Positions 2,881 through 40,931 of a DNA stretch of 45,615 nt are shown here, in pieces. The DNA is from a virus. The stretch is taken from positions 1 to 45,615 of IMG/VR virus record IMGVR_UViG_3300049181_000084; one strand, written 5' to 3'. A model generated the notes under the pieces. That model saw only the letters and a list, made by a program, of their open reading frames with translations, ran no database searches and was not told where the DNA came from. Each line of letters starts with the position of its first letter. Position 1 is the first letter of the stretch. A program made the translations under genes and the position numbers.

Positions 2881-3063
2881 CTAAATTCTATTCCTGCAAT
2901 CAAGCTCCTCCTTGATTAAATCGTACTTTTCGTAATCGTCGGAATTCTTGCGTTTCTTATTCATTATACGATTCATTTCATCCAGTAATTCATCAAGGCT
3001 GGCCAGTTTATAATCTCTTCCATTAATCCTGTAATCGGCTGCTGGTATCTCATATTTTGCCAT
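2881..3063 (-). CDS. Hypothetical 60-residue charged protein, last gene of the late operon
   Basis: Starts MAKYEIPAADYRINGRDYKL and ends in a Lys/Glu/Asp-rich helix. An upstream in-frame ATG at 3138 would add a hydrophobic stretch, but that stretch lies wholly inside the coding end of the metallophosphatase in another frame. The ATG at 3063 overlaps the phosphatase stop by 14 bp and gives the simpler gene. No family recognised. Confidence 0.6.
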   Translation of the reverse strand: MAKYEIPAADYRINGRDYKLASLDELLDEMNRIMNKKRKNSDDYEKYDLIKEELDCRNRI

Positions 3064-3961
3064 AGATCTTACCATTATAATTACAAAGGCCATTAATAAT
3101 AACATGAGGAGAACCGAAGAAAACAGTTTTATCTCCATCCTTTACAAAGTCTACAGTTACAAATCCATTTTGCCAATCTGCTATTTTACCAGTTGGTAAA
3201 TATTCAACTTCTTGAGCTATCCTGGTGCAGCCTAATTCAAACCATACATAAGGAGCCTTTTTATTTGTCAGGAATTTAGAGTTTAATCTGTGGGTGTGAC
3301 CGGTTGCTCCGGAACTCATATACTCATATATGTTCTTTTCGCTGGCGTTCTTTGCAAGGCTTAATCCGTGGGTAACATCGAATATATTAAAGTAGGTATA
3401 AACGTCTGATGGATCATAAACAAACCCATCATTCAAACCTAACATCTTATCAAATTCAGTTGTCTTTAATTCCTTGTAAAGAACATTTAATCTTTCAGCC
3501 TGTGATTGTCCTAATGAATTTGGTTTAGTTATCCGCTCATCATGGTTGCCTATTCTTACCCGGATCTTTGCATCTGTGGATAGTCTAAGAGGTTTCAGGA
3601 TCTGCTCCCGGGTATATTCAATCTCCCCTACCTCAGAATACCCTTTTAAAATTCCGTCTTCATAAAGCTTTTTTGGGTGCCTGGATAGATAGGGTAAATC
3701 CATTATATCCCCGTTTATACACACCTCGTCAAAGTGATTATCCTGCAAAACTTCATTGATACACTTCAAGACTTTAAGATCTGCCAGCCAGCCGTGAGGA
3801 TCAGAGAAAAGTAAAACCCGGTAAACTTTTGAATCGTGAATTTTCTTTTGTGACTCCTCTTCTGAAAGAAGTAATTTCTTTAACTGGGGTTCCGGTAATT
3901 CCTTTAAAAGTGGTATGTACTTTTCAAAGTATTCCGGAAGTCTTGGGCGTACCTGTGTCAT
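3050..3961 (-). CDS. Calcineurin-like metallophosphoesterase
   Basis: With the start at 3961 (ATGA overlap with the preceding stop) the protein is 303 residues. The metal-binding signature is complete: SDPHG at 53-57, GDIMD at 84-88, GNHDE at 138-142, then VTHG and GHTHR in the C-terminal half. The fold hydrolyses phosphomono- or diesters using two metal ions. The substrate cannot be read from the sequence. It sits among the lysis genes; whether it acts on nucleic acid, cell wall precursor or nucleotide is unknown. An upstream ATG at 4018 is possible but would overlap the spanin gene by 61 bp. Confidence 0.85.
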   Translation of the reverse strand: MTQVRPRLPEYFEKYIPLLKELPEPQLKKLLLSEEESQKKIHDSKVYRVLLFSDPHGWLADLKVLKCINEVLQDNHFDEVCINGDIMDLPYLSRHPKKLYEDGILKGYSEVGEIEYTREQILKPLRLSTDAKIRVRIGNHDERITKPNSLGQSQAERLNVLYKELKTTEFDKMLGLNDGFVYDPSDVYTYFNIFDVTHGLSLAKNASEKNIYEYMSSGATGHTHRLNSKFLTNKKAPYVWFELGCTRIAQEVEYLPTGKIADWQNGFVTVDFVKDGDKTVFFGSPHVIINGLCNYNGKIYGKI

Positions 3962-4392
3962 TTTCGGAGGATTAAGAGGAGAATAATAATTACGGCAAGT
4001 ATTCCTATTACCGGCCATACCCAGGAGGGAAGATTTTCTTTAAATGTGATTCTTTCGGTAATTACCGGAACCTGTCGGATAATAGTATCTCCCTTGCATT
4101 CACCATAGATATACACTGAATCCCGGGTATGAATATACTTTACAGTAAGGTTGTTCTTGTGTATTACTACAGTGTCAACTGACGAAGAAAATACTGTATC
4201 AGCCTTTACAGTTTCAGTTATCAGTGTATCTTTTATCCAGGTGGTATCAGTGGTAAACAACTTTGGATGGTTCTTTTTTAATATTGCCATCCTGCGAGCA
4301 GGGGAACAGGAAAATACAACTACAATCAGCGCAAGAAAGAGCAGAAAGAAAAATATCTTCTTCCACGTAAACCAATCAATTATTATTCTCAT
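3958..4392 (-). CDS. Probable unimolecular spanin (u-spanin)
   Basis: 144 residues. The N-terminus carries a hydrophobic signal (FFFLLFLALIVVV) ending in a lipobox-like VFSC with Cys29, then a Thr/Val-rich, beta-prone periplasmic part with no obvious coiled coil. The C-terminus has a second hydrophobic span (WVWPVIGILAVIIILLLIL) before RK. An outer-membrane lipoprotein N-terminus joined to an inner-membrane C-terminal anchor is the architecture of u-spanins, which fuse the two membranes at the end of lysis. Position among holin and lysis genes and ATGA overlaps on both sides support the role. It could instead be a membrane protein of other function. Confidence 0.65.
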   Translation of the reverse strand: MRIIIDWFTWKKIFFFLLFLALIVVVFSCSPARRMAILKKNHPKLFTTDTTWIKDTLITETVKADTVFSSSVDTVVIHKNNLTVKYIHTRDSVYIYGECKGDTIIRQVPVITERITFKENLPSWVWPVIGILAVIIILLLILRK

Positions 4393-15683: not shown

Positions 15684-17210
15684 TTACAATGATTGTGTAT
15701 ATCCTATTTTAACTTCAAAATTCCTTGCAACCGGTGAGCTTATTAACTCGGTTGAAACAGATACTTTACCAGTAGACTGAGGCTTCTGTGTGGTGTCAAT
15801 TGTTGTCGAACCTGCGGAAATTTCCTCATCTCTTATCATCTGCTCTAGTGCCTGATTGCCTAATGATTCCAGATAAGCAATCGTACCATCTGTCATTGTT
15901 CCATCAGAGTTTAGTCTAAGGTTTGAATTCAGAGCTGGCAAAAGTGCGGCTCTCTGCATCCTGATTGCCTTATCAATTGTTCTGACATTCTCAATGTAGC
16001 AGTAATCAGATGTTGCGCTGGTACTGGTGTGTGAATCATTAAAATATGTTCCGGTAAGTCCATCTAGTTTTCTCAGGAAAATGTATTTATACATGTTGAT
16101 CTGAGATAGAAGAGAACTGGAAACATCCCTGAACTTTGTTCCGTTTGCGAATGCTGCAACTTCTAATTCAGTACCTGTGCTTAGATTACATTTTGCTACA
16201 TTTCCGATATTCTCATGCACTTTAATTGCTGCTAGGGTTCCTAGAGTTGCACCGCCACATGTAATTGATTTACCGTAAGCTTTGAATAACTCAAAACCGG
16301 TGTTTGCTCCATCCTGACCAACTACAACACTGACATTTTCACTATCCAGTGATCTTAAATCTGAAAGAGATGAAAGATTAGTTACAGCTGCAATATTGCC
16401 AGCATATAAAATCGAAAGTGGTGCATGTTCTTCGCTCAGTGTGTCAACAACTCCCTGAATTGTGGTTACCTGAGATGTTGCAAATGCTGTAAAATCATTA
16501 TATACAAACATCTGCCTGATTGTTTTCTCAGCGTATGTCTGTACCGTTGAAATCTCTGTGAAGGTTGGAGTACCCCCAGGAACCGCATACATTCCCACAT
16601 AAAGCTTACCCTGTCCACTGATTTTTTCAATCATTCTGAAGTACTCAGAAATATGATAATGATGCACAGCAAGAACTGAAGCAACACCACCAGTAAACTG
16701 TGTTATTGTTCCGGCAACTGTTCCTGAGATTGTTACACTTAGCGGAGTTCCAGAATTTAGAAATATTCCTAATCCCTGACGCGCTGTAATTGTTACTGTA
16801 GCAGTTGCAACTGAAGCAGTGTAACCGTGAGTATCTGTACCAGCATTAATTGCGGCTGTGATTGCTGTCGCAACTAATGCGGCAGTAGTATCTGTGGATG
16901 TTCTCGTGTAGGAGCAAAGCGTTACAGTATCAGTGTGTTCAGCAACTTTAACAGTAACAGTATCACCTTCAGCTCCAGCATTAGTTACAAGGTAAGAACC
17001 TGTGGCTTTTGTTTCGTCTGAATAATCATCAGTAATACCGGCAGCCTCTGCATCCTCAATCTGATAAAAAACTTTAACCCTGTCAGAAGAAGTAAATCCG
17101 GATGGCAAGGAACTTACATAGCCAATATAGCCGGCAATATAATCTTCTCCGTCCTGCGGTCTCCCTAATCCTCCCTGGCTTTTTCTGAATATAATATCGT
17201 TTAGTGCCAT
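15684..17210 (-). CDS. Tail sheath protein
   Basis: 508 residues. N-terminus MALNDIIFRKSQGGLGRPQDGEDYIAG is typical of Bacteroidetes phage sheaths (DUF2586-like). An Ala/Thr-rich beta insertion lies at about 85-175. The C-terminal part contains LRKLDGLTGTYFNDSHTSTS, YIENVRTIDKAIRMQRAALLPALN and a final strand SPVARNFEVKIGYTQSL, matching the sheath C-terminal arm that links neighbouring subunits. Presence of a sheath shows that the phage is a myovirus. Confidence 0.85.
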   Translation of the reverse strand: MALNDIIFRKSQGGLGRPQDGEDYIAGYIGYVSSLPSGFTSSDRVKVFYQIEDAEAAGITDDYSDETKATGSYLVTNAGAEGDTVTVKVAEHTDTVTLCSYTRTSTDTTAALVATAITAAINAGTDTHGYTASVATATVTITARQGLGIFLNSGTPLSVTISGTVAGTITQFTGGVASVLAVHHYHISEYFRMIEKISGQGKLYVGMYAVPGGTPTFTEISTVQTYAEKTIRQMFVYNDFTAFATSQVTTIQGVVDTLSEEHAPLSILYAGNIAAVTNLSSLSDLRSLDSENVSVVVGQDGANTGFELFKAYGKSITCGGATLGTLAAIKVHENIGNVAKCNLSTGTELEVAAFANGTKFRDVSSSLLSQINMYKYIFLRKLDGLTGTYFNDSHTSTSATSDYCYIENVRTIDKAIRMQRAALLPALNSNLRLNSDGTMTDGTIAYLESLGNQALEQMIRDEEISAGSTTIDTTQKPQSTGKVSVSTELISSPVARNFEVKIGYTQSL

Positions 17211-17404
17211 TATTTCTTTTTATTTGGCGGTTCAGGTTTAATTTCAAACACTTCCAGGCCCTGATCTTTAGCATGAGCCTTTATTGTGTCTGCATTTCCA
17301 TTTAGATAGAATGATCCATCACTGGTAGCAATTACACTTTTTGCCTTTTTGCATTGCTCCGAAAGCTGGGTTCTGGCGTGTTCTTTTGCTTCTTCAAATG
17401 TCAT
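17210..17404 (-). CDS. Hypothetical 64-residue protein
   Basis: Starts MTFEEAKEHARTQLSEQCKKAKSV, then a short strand-turn-strand (ATSDGSFYLNGNADTI), and ends PEPPNKKK. Coupled to both neighbours by ATGA/TAATG overlaps. Lies between the capsid-decorating genes and the sheath, so it may be a head-tail joining accessory. The overall pattern resembles small phage proteins predicted to be tied to capsid genes. Not identified. Confidence 0.6.
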   Translation of the reverse strand: MTFEEAKEHARTQLSEQCKKAKSVIATSDGSFYLNGNADTIKAHAKDQGLEVFEIKPEPPNKKK

Positions 17405-17553
17405 TTTTCAGACTTCTTTTTTTCGTTTAGGATTTCATCACGTGATACTTCACGATATCCAGGACGCGGATAGAACAACCACTCATTTTTTTCATTGAGG
17501 TAAACCCTCTCAACTGAGGGCTTACTCTTCAAATATTCTTTCAGGATTTCCAT
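17401..17553 (-). CDS. Hypothetical 50-residue protein
   Basis: Frame from ATG at 17553 to TGA at 17401: MEILKEYLKSKPSVERVYL at the start, a middle WLFYPRPGYREVSRDEIL and a Lys-rich end. It shares TAATG with the upstream stop and ATGA with the next gene. Both overlaps support translation. It is similar in size and place to small head-joining accessory genes. Function unknown. Confidence 0.65.
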   Translation of the reverse strand: MEILKEYLKSKPSVERVYLNEKNEWLFYPRPGYREVSRDEILNEKKKSEK

Positions 17554-17912
17554 TACGGCTGAACAAATCTTGAAATTTCAATCCAGGATGTTCCGTTAAA
17601 TCTGAATACAGCAGAAGCATTTTTATTTATTGCTGCTGTCAATGTTCCGGCACTGACAAAGTTGGTTCCGAAAGTCGTTACCCTGGCAGTTCCATCTGCA
17701 CTCAGAAGAAATGTAATTTCATCATCAGGCGCAGAATAAGTTGTTGTTGCGTTAACTGTCATTGCTCCGGTAAGCGCAATCTGATATGTAGTTCTTGAAT
17801 GCTTTGGAGTAATTGCCAAAGTTGCTGCGTATGCTGTGGTTGGATAGTCACAGGTAATTAATCTACCTGTGTTATCACTGTTTGCTGAGTATCTTGGTTC
17901 TGATAGTGCCAT
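17553..17912 (-). CDS. Likely head decoration or fibre-like head protein
   Basis: 119 residues, Thr/Ala-rich beta pattern (LAITPKHSRTTYQIALTGAMTV, DDEITFLLSADGTARVTTFGTNF, AVFRFNGTSWIEISR). The last motif, FNGTSWIEISR, recurs in many capsid decoration and fibre domains. It follows the major capsid gene closely, the usual place of a decoration protein. Binding to the capsid is inferred. Confidence 0.6.
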   Translation of the reverse strand: MALSEPRYSANSDNTGRLITCDYPTTAYAATLAITPKHSRTTYQIALTGAMTVNATTTYSAPDDEITFLLSADGTARVTTFGTNFVSAGTLTAAINKNASAVFRFNGTSWIEISRFVQP

Positions 17913-17917
17913 TTCGA

Positions 17918-18847
17918 TTAAGCTTTATAAAGTACTGTTTCCGCTCCCCATCCGAAGTTTACATCGGCTTCCATTTTCATTTTAATGAACCACAGGTCAG
18001 AGTTTGCCTGAAGTGGTGCCAGTTTCAAACCTTCATCAGATACTGAGTTAAGACCAAGCCACAGGTTAGATTCTCTGCTTGCGCTTCCTCTTGCGATGAA
18101 ATATGTATTTGCGGGGAAGTCGGCAATCCTTACTATTTTAAGACCTTTGTAAGTATCCTTACCTCTTTGAGTAAAGTCATTCCCTTTATAGGTCTGGGCT
18201 GTCTGCGCTTGCTCATAAAGCTCAAAGCTGGCATAGCTCATAAAGATCTTCATTGAAGCATCCTGCTTTAAAGCATCAGGAATTAGTACATACCCTTTTT
18301 CAAGCTCTGCAACAATGTTTGAAGCTGTAAGAGTAGTTGGTGAAGCAACATCGACTACAGTAGAATCTGCGACAGCCTTTGTAATAATACCATCATAATA
18401 TTTGTAAATTCCGGCAGTTGAGGTATCTCCATTCCAGATCTGCTTATTCATATACTTTGCATGTCTTGCAAGTACAGCCTGAACTACCACAGACTCTACT
18501 GTATATGGCAATGCGCGATCGATAAGATCTTTATTTAATTGAGTTGCGTACCAGTGATCGGCGAAATCATTCGGATCAAACTCGGTATAAATCATGTACG
18601 GTTTCGGCTCCAGTGTCTTTTTATCCACTGTGAATGCTCCCTTTGGCGAAGGAGTAGGAACCGTGTCCTGAATGAAATCTTCGTAATCTGCATCAAAAGT
18701 TGGGATAGTAAATTTCTTTTTGATCCCATCTTTTACATAAATATGACCACCGCTTACAGTGTCATTACCAGTAAGGGCTTTCAGAATGAACTGTGAAGCA
18801 ACTTCACCGGCATATGTGGTATCATTGATTGTAAATCCTAATGCCAT
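17918..18847 (-). CDS. Major capsid protein
   Basis: 309 residues, directly after the protease-scaffold gene. Features seen in HK97-fold coats of this lineage: MALGFTINDTTYAGEVASQFI, KKFTIPTFDADYEDF, then the E-loop side EPKPYMIYTEFDPNDFADHWY and the C-terminal FIARGSASRESNLWLGLNSVSDEG and NSDLWFIKMKMEADVNFGWG. It assembles the icosahedral head. The gene is followed within 6 bp by the decoration candidate. Confidence 0.85.
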   Translation of the reverse strand: MALGFTINDTTYAGEVASQFILKALTGNDTVSGGHIYVKDGIKKKFTIPTFDADYEDFIQDTVPTPSPKGAFTVDKKTLEPKPYMIYTEFDPNDFADHWYATQLNKDLIDRALPYTVESVVVQAVLARHAKYMNKQIWNGDTSTAGIYKYYDGIITKAVADSTVVDVASPTTLTASNIVAELEKGYVLIPDALKQDASMKIFMSYASFELYEQAQTAQTYKGNDFTQRGKDTYKGLKIVRIADFPANTYFIARGSASRESNLWLGLNSVSDEGLKLAPLQANSDLWFIKMKMEADVNFGWGAETVLYKA

Positions 18848-18849
18848 TT

Positions 18850-19947
18850 TTAGTTTTGGTTTTTATTGTTGATTGTTGCCATCAGTCCAGCGGCAGTATA
18901 TTTCGGAACATCAGATTTTACTTCGTTCACGATTTTAATTCCGGTTTTATTCACTGGCATTGCTTCCAGCTTCTTCTTTGTGCCTTCATAATCTTTTTTT
19001 GCATCCTCAATCCACAGGTTAACGACCTCCTGGTCATTACCGATTTTTGCTGTGAATTTGTTTACAAGATCCTTTGCACTGACTTCTTTAGCATCCTCTT
19101 CAGCTTGCTTTTTAGCAGTTTCAGCCGCCTCTTTCTCCTGCTTTAGAGTATTGAGTGCGGATTCCTTTTCTGTAAGCTGGTTTTTAACCTGCTCCAGTTC
19201 TGTTTTCAGGCTGTTATTGAGAGTCTCAGATTCTTTGGCTCTGTTCTCGATCTTCTCAATAGCCGTCAGAATAGAATCCTCATTTGCCTGATCGTTCAAA
19301 CCTAGTTTGTTTGTGACCTTTAGCATTGTATTTATTTTAGGTGTAATTACTTTGTTAAGTATGAGAGTAGCATCTTTCCAAGCCATTTCGATCGACTCGG
19401 TTCTCATGTGTTTCCTGTTGGCCTCAGAGCTTGCGACTATCTCGTCACACATTCCCATTTCCACGGCTTCAGAAGGATTTATAAATGTTGTGCGGTTCAT
19501 TAAAGAACTAAGCTCGTCTTCGGATTTATTAGATCTGCCTGAAGTGAGCTTTAAAAGGGAATCTTTAAATGTTTTAATTACCTCTGAGTTGGTTGATCCT
19601 TGTGGGTTGTGGATCATAAGGAAGCCGTAATCAGCCATATGTCGTTTCCGGCCGGACAAGTAGATCAGTGCTGAAATACTTGCAGCCATACCCATACAAT
19701 GAGTATCAACCTTTGTTTTTGTATTCAGAATGGCTGAAATAATACTGTAACCGTCTGTTACTGCTCCTCCTGGACTATTTATCCAGATGTTGATTTTCTT
19801 TTTACCAAGAGAATCAAGAGTTAATAATTCCCTTGAAAAATCACTACCAATTACTCCGTATCCATCCTGTTCGTCATAACCTATATGCTTGTCTATAAGC
19901 ATTATAGGTTCGTCTGCATTAGGATCTATGGTGTAAAGGAAATTCAT
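18850..19947 (-). CDS. Prohead protease with fused scaffold, ClpP (S14) type
   Basis: 365 residues. The N-terminal 160 residues are ClpP-like: INSPGGAVTDGYSI at 57-70, catalytic Ser90 in GMAAS and His113 in MIHNP. Residues about 225-300 are a long charged coiled coil (ESETLNNSLKTELEQVKN, EKESALNTLKQEKEAAET), the usual internal scaffold. The C-terminus ends in a capsid-binding like basic helix. The protease trims scaffold and coat during head maturation. Immediately upstream the operon is interrupted by the rightward cargo cassette. Confidence 0.9.
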   Translation of the reverse strand: MNFLYTIDPNADEPIMLIDKHIGYDEQDGYGVIGSDFSRELLTLDSLGKKKINIWINSPGGAVTDGYSIISAILNTKTKVDTHCMGMAASISALIYLSGRKRHMADYGFLMIHNPQGSTNSEVIKTFKDSLLKLTSGRSNKSEDELSSLMNRTTFINPSEAVEMGMCDEIVASSEANRKHMRTESIEMAWKDATLILNKVITPKINTMLKVTNKLGLNDQANEDSILTAIEKIENRAKESETLNNSLKTELEQVKNQLTEKESALNTLKQEKEAAETAKKQAEEDAKEVSAKDLVNKFTAKIGNDQEVVNLWIEDAKKDYEGTKKKLEAMPVNKTGIKIVNEVKSDVPKYTAAGLMATINNKNQN

Positions 19948-20004: not shown

Positions 20005-20027
20005 ATTAAAACCTTTGTTTTATACCT
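20005..20027 (+). promoter_or_regulatory. Promoter-like repeat, copy 1
   Basis: A 23-bp element starting ATTAAAACCTTT and ending TTATACCT, 19 of 23 bases identical with 20284-20306. It lies 44 bp upstream of the start at 20049. TACCTTTA just inside its end is one base from the Bacteroidetes -7 box. It probably drives the rightward cargo genes. Confidence 0.5.
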
Positions 20028-20048
20028 TTACTTTAAGTAAATTGAAGT

Positions 20049-20270
20049 ATGGGAAAATATCGCAGTTCCTCACTAGATAGGCGCATTGCGCTGTATCCAC
20101 ACCCGAAAGTTCACTTATTATTTAAAGCTTTTGTTTATGAGAATGATATGTCAGGATCTGAAGGAGCCGAAATGATGGTGAAGACTTTTCTTGAATCATT
20201 GCCAGAGGATAAAAAAGAAGCAATGATGAAGCGTTATATGATAAGCCTTAGGGAAAAGGCTTCTGAATAA
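20049..20270 (+). CDS. Small ribbon-helix-helix-like protein of the cargo cassette
   Basis: 73 residues: MGKYRSSSLDRRIALYPHPK, then VHLLFKAFVYENDMSGSEGAEMMVKTFLESL. A strand followed by two helices with SGSEGAEMMV in the turn is the arrangement of RHH or Arc-like DNA-binding proteins. It is first of three rightward genes placed against the late operon. It may regulate the repeated promoter element next to it, or be unrelated to DNA binding. Confidence 0.55.
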   Translation: MGKYRSSSLDRRIALYPHPKVHLLFKAFVYENDMSGSEGAEMMVKTFLESLPEDKKEAMMKRYMISLREKASE

Positions 20271-20283
20271 GCACATTTCCCAG

Positions 20284-20306
20284 ATTAAAACCTTTTACTT
20301 ATACTT
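20284..20306 (+). promoter_or_regulatory. Promoter-like repeat, copy 2
   Basis: Second copy of the element at 20005-20027. It ends TTATACTT followed by GCG, giving TATACTTG, one base from the Bacteroidetes -7 box. It is 50 bp upstream of the start at 20334, between the first and second cargo genes. Confidence 0.5.
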
Positions 20307-20333
20307 GCGTTAAACTGATAAATTTTTAACGCT

Positions 20334-20771
20334 ATGAAATCGCTTTTTATCCTTTTGCCTTTCCTGGCTACTCCATTATCATTTTATCAAAACAGTATAA
20401 GATGCCTATATTCTGATACTCATACAGTTTTTAATGAAACCGGATTAATTAAAAAAAACACTCCAGCCTGTGCATGTTTTGATAATACTTACTTTGCATA
20501 TTATCGGAAAGAAGTAGGTAGTAGAGTGTTTAGGAGGGAGCATATAACCAAAAGCTTAACCACTGACGGTTACCCTAGAGAGATGTTTGTTAATGGAGAA
20601 TCTGAAACAGTTCCTGAAGGTGATTTAAGTTTTCAAATTGATTATGGACCTACTATTAGTATTATGATTAATTATAGCAAGCATGGTCAAGCTGTATTAA
20701 TTCAAGGAAAGGAATTTATCGGAACAACAAACCCATTCATAAAAGAACATATAAACATACCAGGCCTATGA
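20334..20771 (+). CDS. Secreted protein of the cargo cassette
   Basis: 145 residues. The N-terminus MKSLFILLPFLATPLSFYQNS has a basic start, a hydrophobic core and a short polar end, as in a Sec signal peptide. The mature part has a Cys-Ala-Cys motif (ACACFD) near 46-51, so a disulphide is possible. No family recognised. The stop overlaps the next start by ATGA, so the two secreted proteins are made together, perhaps as a pair. Confidence 0.6.
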   Translation: MKSLFILLPFLATPLSFYQNSIRCLYSDTHTVFNETGLIKKNTPACACFDNTYFAYYRKEVGSRVFRREHITKSLTTDGYPREMFVNGESETVPEGDLSFQIDYGPTISIMINYSKHGQAVLIQGKEFIGTTNPFIKEHINIPGL

Positions 20772-21301
20772 AAGCTTTATTTTTAATTTTGTTTATAACA
20801 TTTTCATTCAGTGGTTTTTCACAGAAAACTGTTAGTCTTTGGGAGTTTTCGCATAAGGATAAGACTATTCAGGTTGGTGATACTGCTTGGGTTAAAATTG
20901 GATACCAGCAAAGTTATTTCCAGTCAACTGATAATTTTTCAATAAAATATTTTGAAGTAAATCCTGATAATACCCTAAATGGTAATCAACATATCGTTTT
21001 TCAAGGAAAGATATCTGAATTAAACTCTTTGCCATTTAATTCAGATAATGTAACCAAGACTGTTAAATTTAAAATAGTTGATGATTATAGTGGTAAATCA
21101 AAATTATCTATCCAATATGTTACTGATCCTACTCCACAATATTTTTTTACCTCAAAGGTTCTTAGTATTAATGAGTCAATATCCAATGAAGCAACATGCA
21201 TCTACTTTGACCTTTACGGCCATGAAGTAAAAAGTCCAGTAAATGGTTTTTACATTTACCGGACCAATACAGGAGAAACAGGTAAGATTTTTATTCCTTA
21301 A
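20768..21301 (+). CDS. Secreted protein with a T9SS-like C-terminal sorting domain
   Basis: 177 residues. Signal peptide MKALFLILFITFSFSGFSQ, cleaved probably after FS or SQ. Residues about 22-130 form a beta-rich domain. The C-terminus, IYFDLYGHEV at 145-154 and NGFYIYRTNTGETGKIFI at 159-176, matches the pattern of type A Por/T9SS sorting domains (vYDlxGrxV...GiYivrv...gkkfv). Type IX secretion is restricted to Bacteroidetes, so this fits host and suggests that a lysogen exports this protein. Its stop overlaps the leftward fibre stop (TTAA, 21298-21301). Function of the exported domain is unknown. Confidence 0.6.
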   Translation: MKALFLILFITFSFSGFSQKTVSLWEFSHKDKTIQVGDTAWVKIGYQQSYFQSTDNFSIKYFEVNPDNTLNGNQHIVFQGKISELNSLPFNSDNVTKTVKFKIVDDYSGKSKLSIQYVTDPTPQYFFTSKVLSINESISNEATCIYFDLYGHEVKSPVNGFYIYRTNTGETGKIFIP

Positions 21302-22122
21302 TGCTTATACCTGATGTTTATATAGTAATTTTTATCAATACCATATTCTGACATATTTGCTATCCCTAATGATGATCGACCAATATCCAGGTGAGCAAAA
21401 CTAAATACAACAGAGGAATCTGCGGCGGACACAGGAAAGGTTAAATTATACTGAGGCCTTGCTCCGGAATCAATTACAGCAATTTGTGGGTTAGTTGCAG
21501 AAGCACCATTTATTGCCCCCTTTATATGAACATACCCAAATTGATCTACTAAATATTGTAACGTTTGCACCGCAGTCCATCCATTTAATAAAGATATTGT
21601 CGTATACGAGCCTTGATTTTTATCGGCTTTTACAGAATTAGTGGTGTCTAAGTCAGACTGTTCAGCTTTATTATATAGCTTATGCAGGTATTTTATTTCA
21701 GAGCCATTGTAATCAGCAAGTCCGGAACCTGAAACAGCATTACTTAAAACCATTTTACTTACTTTATGCTGATTATACCCTGTTGAGTCAGAATACAAAA
21801 CTGGATCTCCAGCATCAAAGGAATTTGATATACTCCAAACCAAAGTATTAGAAGGCGAATTGATAGAAGCATTTGCATCCACCCGGTAAACCTCACCATT
21901 GTAATAAATAGCTCCTTCGGTTACAGAACTGGTTGTTCCTATGTTTGCTGTTACTTCGCATCCATGCAAAATTACGAGATCATCAGCTGTATACGAACCA
22001 TATAAAGCTTTTACAAGATCCTCAATTCCTTCTGCAATTGCTTCATTATAGAACTCTAAGGTTCTCTTTACAATCGGTGATTTAACGTCACCGGTGATGT
22101 TACTGGTATCTATTTTTTTCAT
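21298..22122 (-). CDS. Tail fibre, baseplate-linked
   Basis: 274 residues, MKKIDTSNITGDVKSPIVKRTLEF at the start, a pattern common at the N-terminus of fibres that follow tail protein I. The middle includes GAIYYNGEVYRVDANASINSPS, and the C-terminus HLDIGRSSLGIANMSEYG is beta-rich. It follows baseplate I within 3 bp, the normal I-then-fibre order. The fibre probably anchors to the baseplate. It meets the cargo cassette head-on. Confidence 0.65.
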   Translation of the reverse strand: MKKIDTSNITGDVKSPIVKRTLEFYNEAIAEGIEDLVKALYGSYTADDLVILHGCEVTANIGTTSSVTEGAIYYNGEVYRVDANASINSPSNTLVWSISNSFDAGDPVLYSDSTGYNQHKVSKMVLSNAVSGSGLADYNGSEIKYLHKLYNKAEQSDLDTTNSVKADKNQGSYTTISLLNGWTAVQTLQYLVDQFGYVHIKGAINGASATNPQIAVIDSGARPQYNLTFPVSAADSSVVFSFAHLDIGRSSLGIANMSEYGIDKNYYINIRYKH

Positions 22123-38488: not shown

Positions 38489-39262
38489 TTACCATTTACA
38501 TGTACTACAAGTGCTTTCCTGGCCTAAATCACGGCCAAAGGTTGAATAAAACTCTGCTTCATCCCTACCCCAATACTTTTTTAAATCACTGCTTAGTTGC
38601 ATAGCATCATCATAGTATGAGGGGTAATATTGCTTTATAGCCTCTATTTCGTGAGGGTACATATTTTTACAAGGAAGGCAATTGTTGTGCTTAAATATCC
38701 TTTTACCTTTAGAGTCTAAGATGTCATAAATTGCCGGATACCAGCCAATATGTTTTTTGACAATCTCAAAACACCAATCATCTGTAAATTCCCCGATTGG
38801 ATATAGTTTATCAAGAGAAAACAAGCCCCTATCCATATTCTTCTGCTGTCTTTCTCCTCGCCTCTTTACTTCATGCTTAACATATCCCACTAGGTCAATG
38901 AATATTCCATTGCTAGCTGCATAATTATTGATAGGGTAAATTTTAAGCCTTTTAGAGCATGGAGAATTTGCCGGATGTGGTATTATGTTTTCCTTCCTGA
39001 AGAAATCAAGGACTGAATTTCGTACAACACTTACATGTACATTGCTTAGTTTCTGCCTGGCATATCTGATTATATCCTTTACAAAAGGAAATGTATCAGG
39101 TGAATGCTCTTTAAAGTGAGCATAAAATAAATGCACAGACTTGGGTTTGTATCCTGATTCAATCAGCCACATAACCACTGCTGCTGAGTTTATCCCTCCT
39201 GAAACACCTATCAGAATATCCTTGCCGTTTAAATCTTCTATTGATTCAGGTATTTTTTCCAT
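38489..39262 (-). CDS. PP-loop ATPase, PAPS reductase-like family
   Basis: 257 residues. SGGINSAA at 21-28 is the PP-loop (SGGxxSxA) that binds ATP alpha/beta phosphates in PAPS reductases, QueC, MnmA and TilS-type enzymes. NSPCSKRLKIYP near 102 and the C-terminal CLPCKNM and STCSTCKW supply Cys pairs, plausibly a metal or iron-sulphur site. PP-loop proteins in phages are known for nucleobase modification (for example dpd/Dnd-like and queuosine-type pathways) and for sulfur chemistry. The substrate here is unknown. Confidence 0.75.
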   Translation of the reverse strand: MEKIPESIEDLNGKDILIGVSGGINSAAVVMWLIESGYKPKSVHLFYAHFKEHSPDTFPFVKDIIRYARQKLSNVHVSVVRNSVLDFFRKENIIPHPANSPCSKRLKIYPINNYAASNGIFIDLVGYVKHEVKRRGERQQKNMDRGLFSLDKLYPIGEFTDDWCFEIVKKHIGWYPAIYDILDSKGKRIFKHNNCLPCKNMYPHEIEAIKQYYPSYYDDAMQLSSDLKKYWGRDEAEFYSTFGRDLGQESTCSTCKW

Positions 39263-40852: not shown

Positions 40853-40931
40853 TGAAGAGTAGAAAGGGTTTGAACCTTCATGTATTGTTACTGGCCAGCC
40901 AATACGTTTTTCCAACTTAAACTACTACTCT
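40853..40931 (-). ncRNA. tRNA-like RNA 2 (abnormal anticodon loop)
   Basis: On the minus strand: acceptor AGAGTAG/CTACTCT (7 bp), TA, D-arm GTTT-AAGTTGGAA-AAAC, anticodon stem TATTG/CAATA, T-arm GAAGG-TTCAAAC-CCTTT. The loop in the anticodon arm is 12 bases (GCTGGCCAGTAA) rather than 7 and contains a CTGGCCAG palindrome. All other helices are normal in length, so the difference is limited to the decoding loop. It shares the 12-base loop length with tRNA-like 1. Confidence 0.6.

Follow-up and report, generated by a model that had tools for sequence, protein, structure and literature searches.

Short CTDs were reported from Prevotella intermedia as signals of the type IX secretion system (T9SS), with cleavage and glycosylation shown experimentally (Ye et al. 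2025, PMC11969387). That study divided a set of 80 predictions for P. intermedia, and it describes this species as the only one reported to have CTDs of either length. Motif B of the short CTD includes an invariant Gly, a conserved Tyr, and a preferred Arg or Lys, while motif D consists of GxY followed by Ile. The gap between motifs B and D is 1–6 residues, and a basic residue is present in motif E (PMC11969387).

Phage-encoded T9SS cargo is also on record. Cryophage encodes type A sorting domains on an endoglucanase, a GH39 enzyme, and a PA14 protein (PMC7468147), and crAss-BACON cluster 2 contigs encode proteins with T9SS sorting domains (PMC6949934). In the literature found, such cargo is rare and known by prediction only, and the initial annotation of the locus described here was fair in calling it seldom described. 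This locus resembles Cryophage and the crAss-BACON contigs in that genes of a Bacteroidota phage are predicted to use the host T9SS. Those phages carry T9SS sorting-domain proteins, whereas here a small orphan protein has a short-CTD-like tail and is encoded in a reversed cassette beside an inverted RHH-like gene of a predicted temperate Mu-like myovirus. Phage T9SS cargo has already been reported. New are the short type of tail, the placement of a reversed cassette next to a conserved RHH-like gene that is itself inverted, and the recurrence of the slot in which the cassette lies.

The phage and the reversed genes

The IMG/VR virus record IMGVR_UViG_3300049181_000084, 45,615 bases in length, was analyzed as a whole and is called the window. 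Profile searches revealed ORFs for a tyrosine integrase-like protein, an AntA antirepressor, Terminase_3, Portal_Mu, a ClpP-like protease, and a DUF2586 sheath. Judged from this predicted gene content, the window phage is a temperate Mu-like myovirus of Bacteroidota. The closest catalogued phage relatives are Flavobacterium-infecting Winoviridae, with terminase identity of ~42%; Winoviridae is the family of these relatives and not an assignment of the window phage. A tRNA-Ala (GGC) is located in the early region (40854–40931, minus strand). By inspection, the ORF at 38489–39262 is PAPS-reductase-like (SGGINS motif), and that at 3050–4018 is metallophosphoesterase-like (GNHDE motif). In locus L001, the product of a gene between capsid and sheath (L001:2679-3107) appears to have a signal peptide (MKKLFALIAFVFAVAVVNAQ); the window ORF in a similar position (17553–17912) lacks one.

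The three rightward genes set against the leftward late operon are present where the initial annotation had placed them, with leftward virion genes on both sides (Table 1). The cassette is tightly packed, since ATGA is shared by genes 2 and 3, and gene 3 runs 4 nt into the convergent virion gene. The position and N-terminus of the latter gene resemble those of the gene preceding the slot in relatives.

Table 1. Features of the cassette in the window and of the cassette in the related prophage L006.
Feature	Coordinates	Strand	Basis or remark
ClpP-like head maturation protease	18850..19947	-	PF00574, E=4e-26; bounds the slot
Repeat copy 1, TTAAAACCTTTGTTTTATACCTT	20006..20028	+	5' of gene 1; candidate promoter or operator
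P0001 (gene 1), 73 aa, RHH-like	20049..20270	+	HMM from 29 relatives, E=1.8e-16; orientation survey
Repeat copy 2	20285..20307	+	5' of gene 2; 18/21 over the core, with the same putative function
P0002 (gene 2), 145 aa, hydrophobic N-terminus, likely exported	20334..20771	+	searches gave no relatives; lacks a C-terminal sorting tail
P0003 (gene 3), 177 aa, beta-rich middle, short T9SS-type tail	20768..21301	+	signal peptide by inspection
Predicted signal peptide of P0003, MKALFLILFITFSFSGFSQ	20768..20824	+	inspection and hydropathy
Short CTD-like tail of P0003, residues 137-177	21176..21298	+	37-tail profile; motifs from PMC11969387
Virion protein, fibre-like	21298..22122	-	phrog_5339, E=2e-7 (weak match to virion structural PHROGs); bounds the slot on the other side
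L006: reversed three-gene cassette	16829-18692	minus	between spike-like and gpW-like late genes
L006: middle protein of the cassette, T9SS long CTD	17527-18258	minus	signal peptide by inspection

Signal peptides had been claimed for genes 2 and 3. That of P0003 is classical by inspection (MKALFLILFITFSFSGFSQ|K) and shows high hydropathy, while P0002 has a hydrophobic N-terminus without a standard cleavage site. Gene 3 has a GC content of 29.8%, compared with 37.0% over the whole window, and falls in the lowest 0.9% among stretches of its length. Opposite strand, absence of homologues in the searches performed, and deviant GC of gene 3 are all observed, and the cassette is well supported as phage cargo (moron).

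The searches for homologues covered several collections. Exact peptide patterns found no close relatives of P0001–P0003 in IMG/VR, tblastn of P0003 and P0001 against phage records gave chance-level matches only, and so did P0003 and P0002 against 395 Bacteroidota genomes. In these genomes, P0002 was repeatedly aligned to ORFs of ~400 aa, and the alignments were not convincing as kinship. Pfam, NCBIfam, PHROGs, and PADLOC gave weak leads only for the cassette, with no match in PADLOC. These leads, PF07703 (E=0.009, under its cut-off) and phrog_23923, of unknown function (E=5e-4, residues 26–83), were rejected. A PDB search found no relative. The mean pLDDT of the AlphaFold models was 41 for P0003 and 46 for P0002, and the models were left out of fold searches.

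The slot and its RHH-like gene

The sheath was used as bait and retrieved 80 viral loci as well as two MAG prophages. In nearly all visible loci, a small RHH-like gene lies between the fibre-like gene and the protease. A profile of this gene from 29 relatives matched P0001 and no other among the 370 ORFs of the window, and the claim that gene 1 encodes an RHH-like protein is borne out. In 41 loci the gene lies on the strand of the late operon; the window, L058, and L080 are the only cases of inversion, and the inverted gene of L080 stands alone, with no cargo. The inversion probably happened more than once, since the sheath tree groups L058 with L080 and places the window elsewhere, with L063. 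In L063 itself an inverted ORF of 51 aa is present at the slot (L063:6877-7032, minus strand), possibly a remnant or a divergent RHH gene. On profile and position, gene 1 of the window is the predicted conserved small RHH-like gene of this phage group, inverted, and not cargo. The proposal of a three-gene cargo cassette holds for genes 2 and 3 and is to be corrected for gene 1.

Several relatives (L022, L040, L046, L062, and L083) have different accessory genes in the slot, and these are often reversed; the slot is therefore a cargo site. A reversed gene pair is found at the slot in Winoviridae phages. In lotta8-1 and FPSV-S1, where the slot lies between tail-completion genes and the protease, the pair (~60 aa and ~167 aa) is directly upstream of the protease, as a counterpart of the arrangement in the window. 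The pair differs in that no resemblance in sequence to the window genes is visible and in that neither a signal peptide nor a CTD is clear in the larger protein. These Winoviridae pairs are located at L002:18856-19531 and L004:20975-21678 (minus strand), and searches found neither homologues of them nor a function. The ~60 aa ORF is unannotated in FPSV-S1.

The C-terminal tail of P0003

The C-terminal letters of P0003 quoted in the initial annotation are exact, and they had been read as a type A sorting pattern. The check proposed there was a search with the sorting models TIGR04183 and TIGR04131, with the lack of any Por profile match counting against the claim. Neither model matched P0003, nor did PF18962. 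A long-CTD profile built here gave P0003 4–5 bits at rank 28, not separable from decoys. These results speak against a long type A sorting domain. They are not a refutation of a sorting tail as such, because TIGR04183 also missed both (2/2) short-tailed host proteins tested, each from a T9SS-positive genome.

The tail fits the short CTD class instead. It consists of SISNEAT, CIYFDLYGHEV (motif B), KSPVN, GFYI (motif D), and ...GKIFIP (motif E), and it shares with the short CTD cargo of P. intermedia (PMC11969387) the length of ~41 residues, motifs D (GxYI) and E, a motif B in divergent form, and the short gap between B and D. The invariant Gly of motif B is present (G151), motif D corresponds to G160-F-Y-I163, the gap KSPVN has 5 residues within the allowed 1–6, and motif E has a basic residue (K173). 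A candidate cleavage region (SI) is found 8–9 residues before motif B. Differences are also evident. P0003 is phage-encoded. In motif B, F147 is aligned with the usual Tyr (Y146 is adjacent), and H152 replaces Arg/Lys after the Gly; Phe at the Tyr position is also seen in the host tails L250, L255, and L257. The D–E hairpin is longer than in most short CTDs, and the terminal Lys is missing. In a single-sequence AlphaFold model, the tail had a pLDDT of ~30 and yielded no prediction of the three-stranded CTD fold.

The significance of this similarity was evaluated with a profile of host tails. Among the 395 Bacteroidota genomes, the sole sorting-tail-like match to the P0003 tail was a host protein (L204) with a short tail at the end of a long ORF. 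Short tails were gathered via L204 and an alignment (A4), and a consensus short-tail query found nothing. From 40 tails fetched, the 37 with a match at the C-terminus trained the profile; they came from other genomes, which have SprA, and each forms the very end of an ORF, in most cases a long one. The search chain started from the P0003 tail, but selection of the 37 training tails did not use P0003; it relied on four host tails, of which three had come via L204 and not via P0003. The scoring set of 9,510 sequences combined 6,510 C-termini of six-frame ORFs, those of the window included, with 3,000 shuffled versions of the P0003 tail. P0003 ranked first of the 9,510 with 19.1 bits (E=3.1e-4), and the runner-up, a shuffle, scored 11.1 bits. 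The tail is significantly similar to short CTD-like tails in T9SS-positive genomes, and the part of the original claim that survives is a T9SS-type tail better than chance. A regular-expression test of the tail, devised after the motif had been seen, was given no weight. One Bacteroidota genome (G549) showed 62 matches to the short-tail profile against 15 to TIGR04183, and G549, G546, and G517 appear to have both CTD lengths, unless they too are Prevotella.

P0003 could instead be a plain Sec-exported periplasmic or outer-membrane-associated beta protein, still encoded by a cargo cassette, whose tail resembles a CTD by convergence with no involvement of T9SS. The negative results with the standard models and the long-CTD profile, the non-ideal motif B, the missing terminal Lys, and the longer D–E hairpin weigh on the T9SS reading, and all but the last of these have been counted for convergence. 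The middle of P0003 is predicted to be beta-rich in a low-confidence model, so a C-terminal hairpin would be expected. Against convergence stand the first rank with its 8-bit margin and the joint fit of GFYI, the B–D spacing, and the placement at the very end of the protein to a short CTD. This explanation is considered possible and rather unlikely. Export of the gene 3 product through the T9SS remains, on the evidence of its predicted signals, the likely reading.

Possible control, proposed export, and a related prophage

The repeated element noticed before gene 1 and gene 2 is real. Its 21-nt core is identical at 18 of 21 positions between the two copies, and a match of at least 18/21 between the two intergenic stretches occurred in 0.07% of 1,500 Markov simulations (p ~7e-4). 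The Bacteroidota promoter TTTG-N17-23-TANNTTTG has a match with two mismatches in each upstream stretch, which is at chance level, as 18% of random 100-nt stretches match equally well. It is attractive to infer that the RHH protein controls both elements as an operator common to both transcription starts. An RHH-like protein and the same element in front of genes 1 and 2 would also suit a regulatory or addiction-like unit, in which this protein represses its own promoter and that of gene 2 through the 21-nt repeat and genes 2 and 3 act in the envelope (e.g., superinfection exclusion) with no T9SS, yet ~40 relatives have the RHH gene in the late operon without genes 2 and 3, so that it is no dedicated antitoxin or partner, PADLOC found no match, and such a unit is improbable. 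The RHH protein may nevertheless regulate the cassette, which makes this view partly compatible with the preferred reading.

The preferred reading, which has a fair probability in its favor, is that of a cargo cassette whose last product would be exported by the host T9SS through a short CTD. The cassette would have been inserted in reverse at the recurrent accessory slot flanked by the fibre-like virion gene and the ClpP-like protease, and the slot's own RHH-like gene, inverted, heads it. Genes 2 and 3 are probably translationally coupled. P0003 would most likely be exported by Sec via its signal peptide, and its short CTD (motifs B, D, and E) would then be recognized by the host T9SS, with release or anchoring of the protein at the cell surface. 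We infer that such export does take place, that the cassette is expressed during lysogeny, and that its product has a surface role, such as superinfection exclusion or altered host interaction.

The related prophage L006 also has reversed genes inside the late operon, and as in the window, one of a closely spaced gene pair encodes a protein with a predicted signal peptide and a T9SS-type CTD. This protein is above both curated cut-offs, with 29.8 against 23 for TIGR04183 and 31.5 against 27 for PF18962. The L006 case differs from the window in that the CTD is long, the junction is spike-like/gpW-like and not the RHH slot, and no similarity to P0003 is seen. No relative of the L006 protein was found in viral collections, and TIGR04183 had no match in 44 other related virus records. 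The host of L006 is a Sphingobacteriales MAG, which has SprA and no fewer than 150 matches to TIGR04183. SprA and T9SS cargo are present in the hosts of the relatives L006 and L007, which are not the window phage's own host. L006 supports the general idea of T9SS cargo in this phage group, without proving the window case.

On a broader scale, it is tentatively proposed, with low confidence, that in a family of temperate Bacteroidota phages the RHH slot and other late-operon junctions dock reversed, independently expressed cassettes whose products would be displayed by T9SS on the lysogen, with the short CTD as a portable tag. A tail this short (~41 residues) would be easy to transfer as an export tag. 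Short-tail cargo may be under-counted in phages, because the standard model tested misses such tails. If the tail works, a phage may display a protein of its own on the outside of its host cell. Concrete genes for asking whether lysogeny alters the Bacteroidota cell surface come from the slot and from L006.
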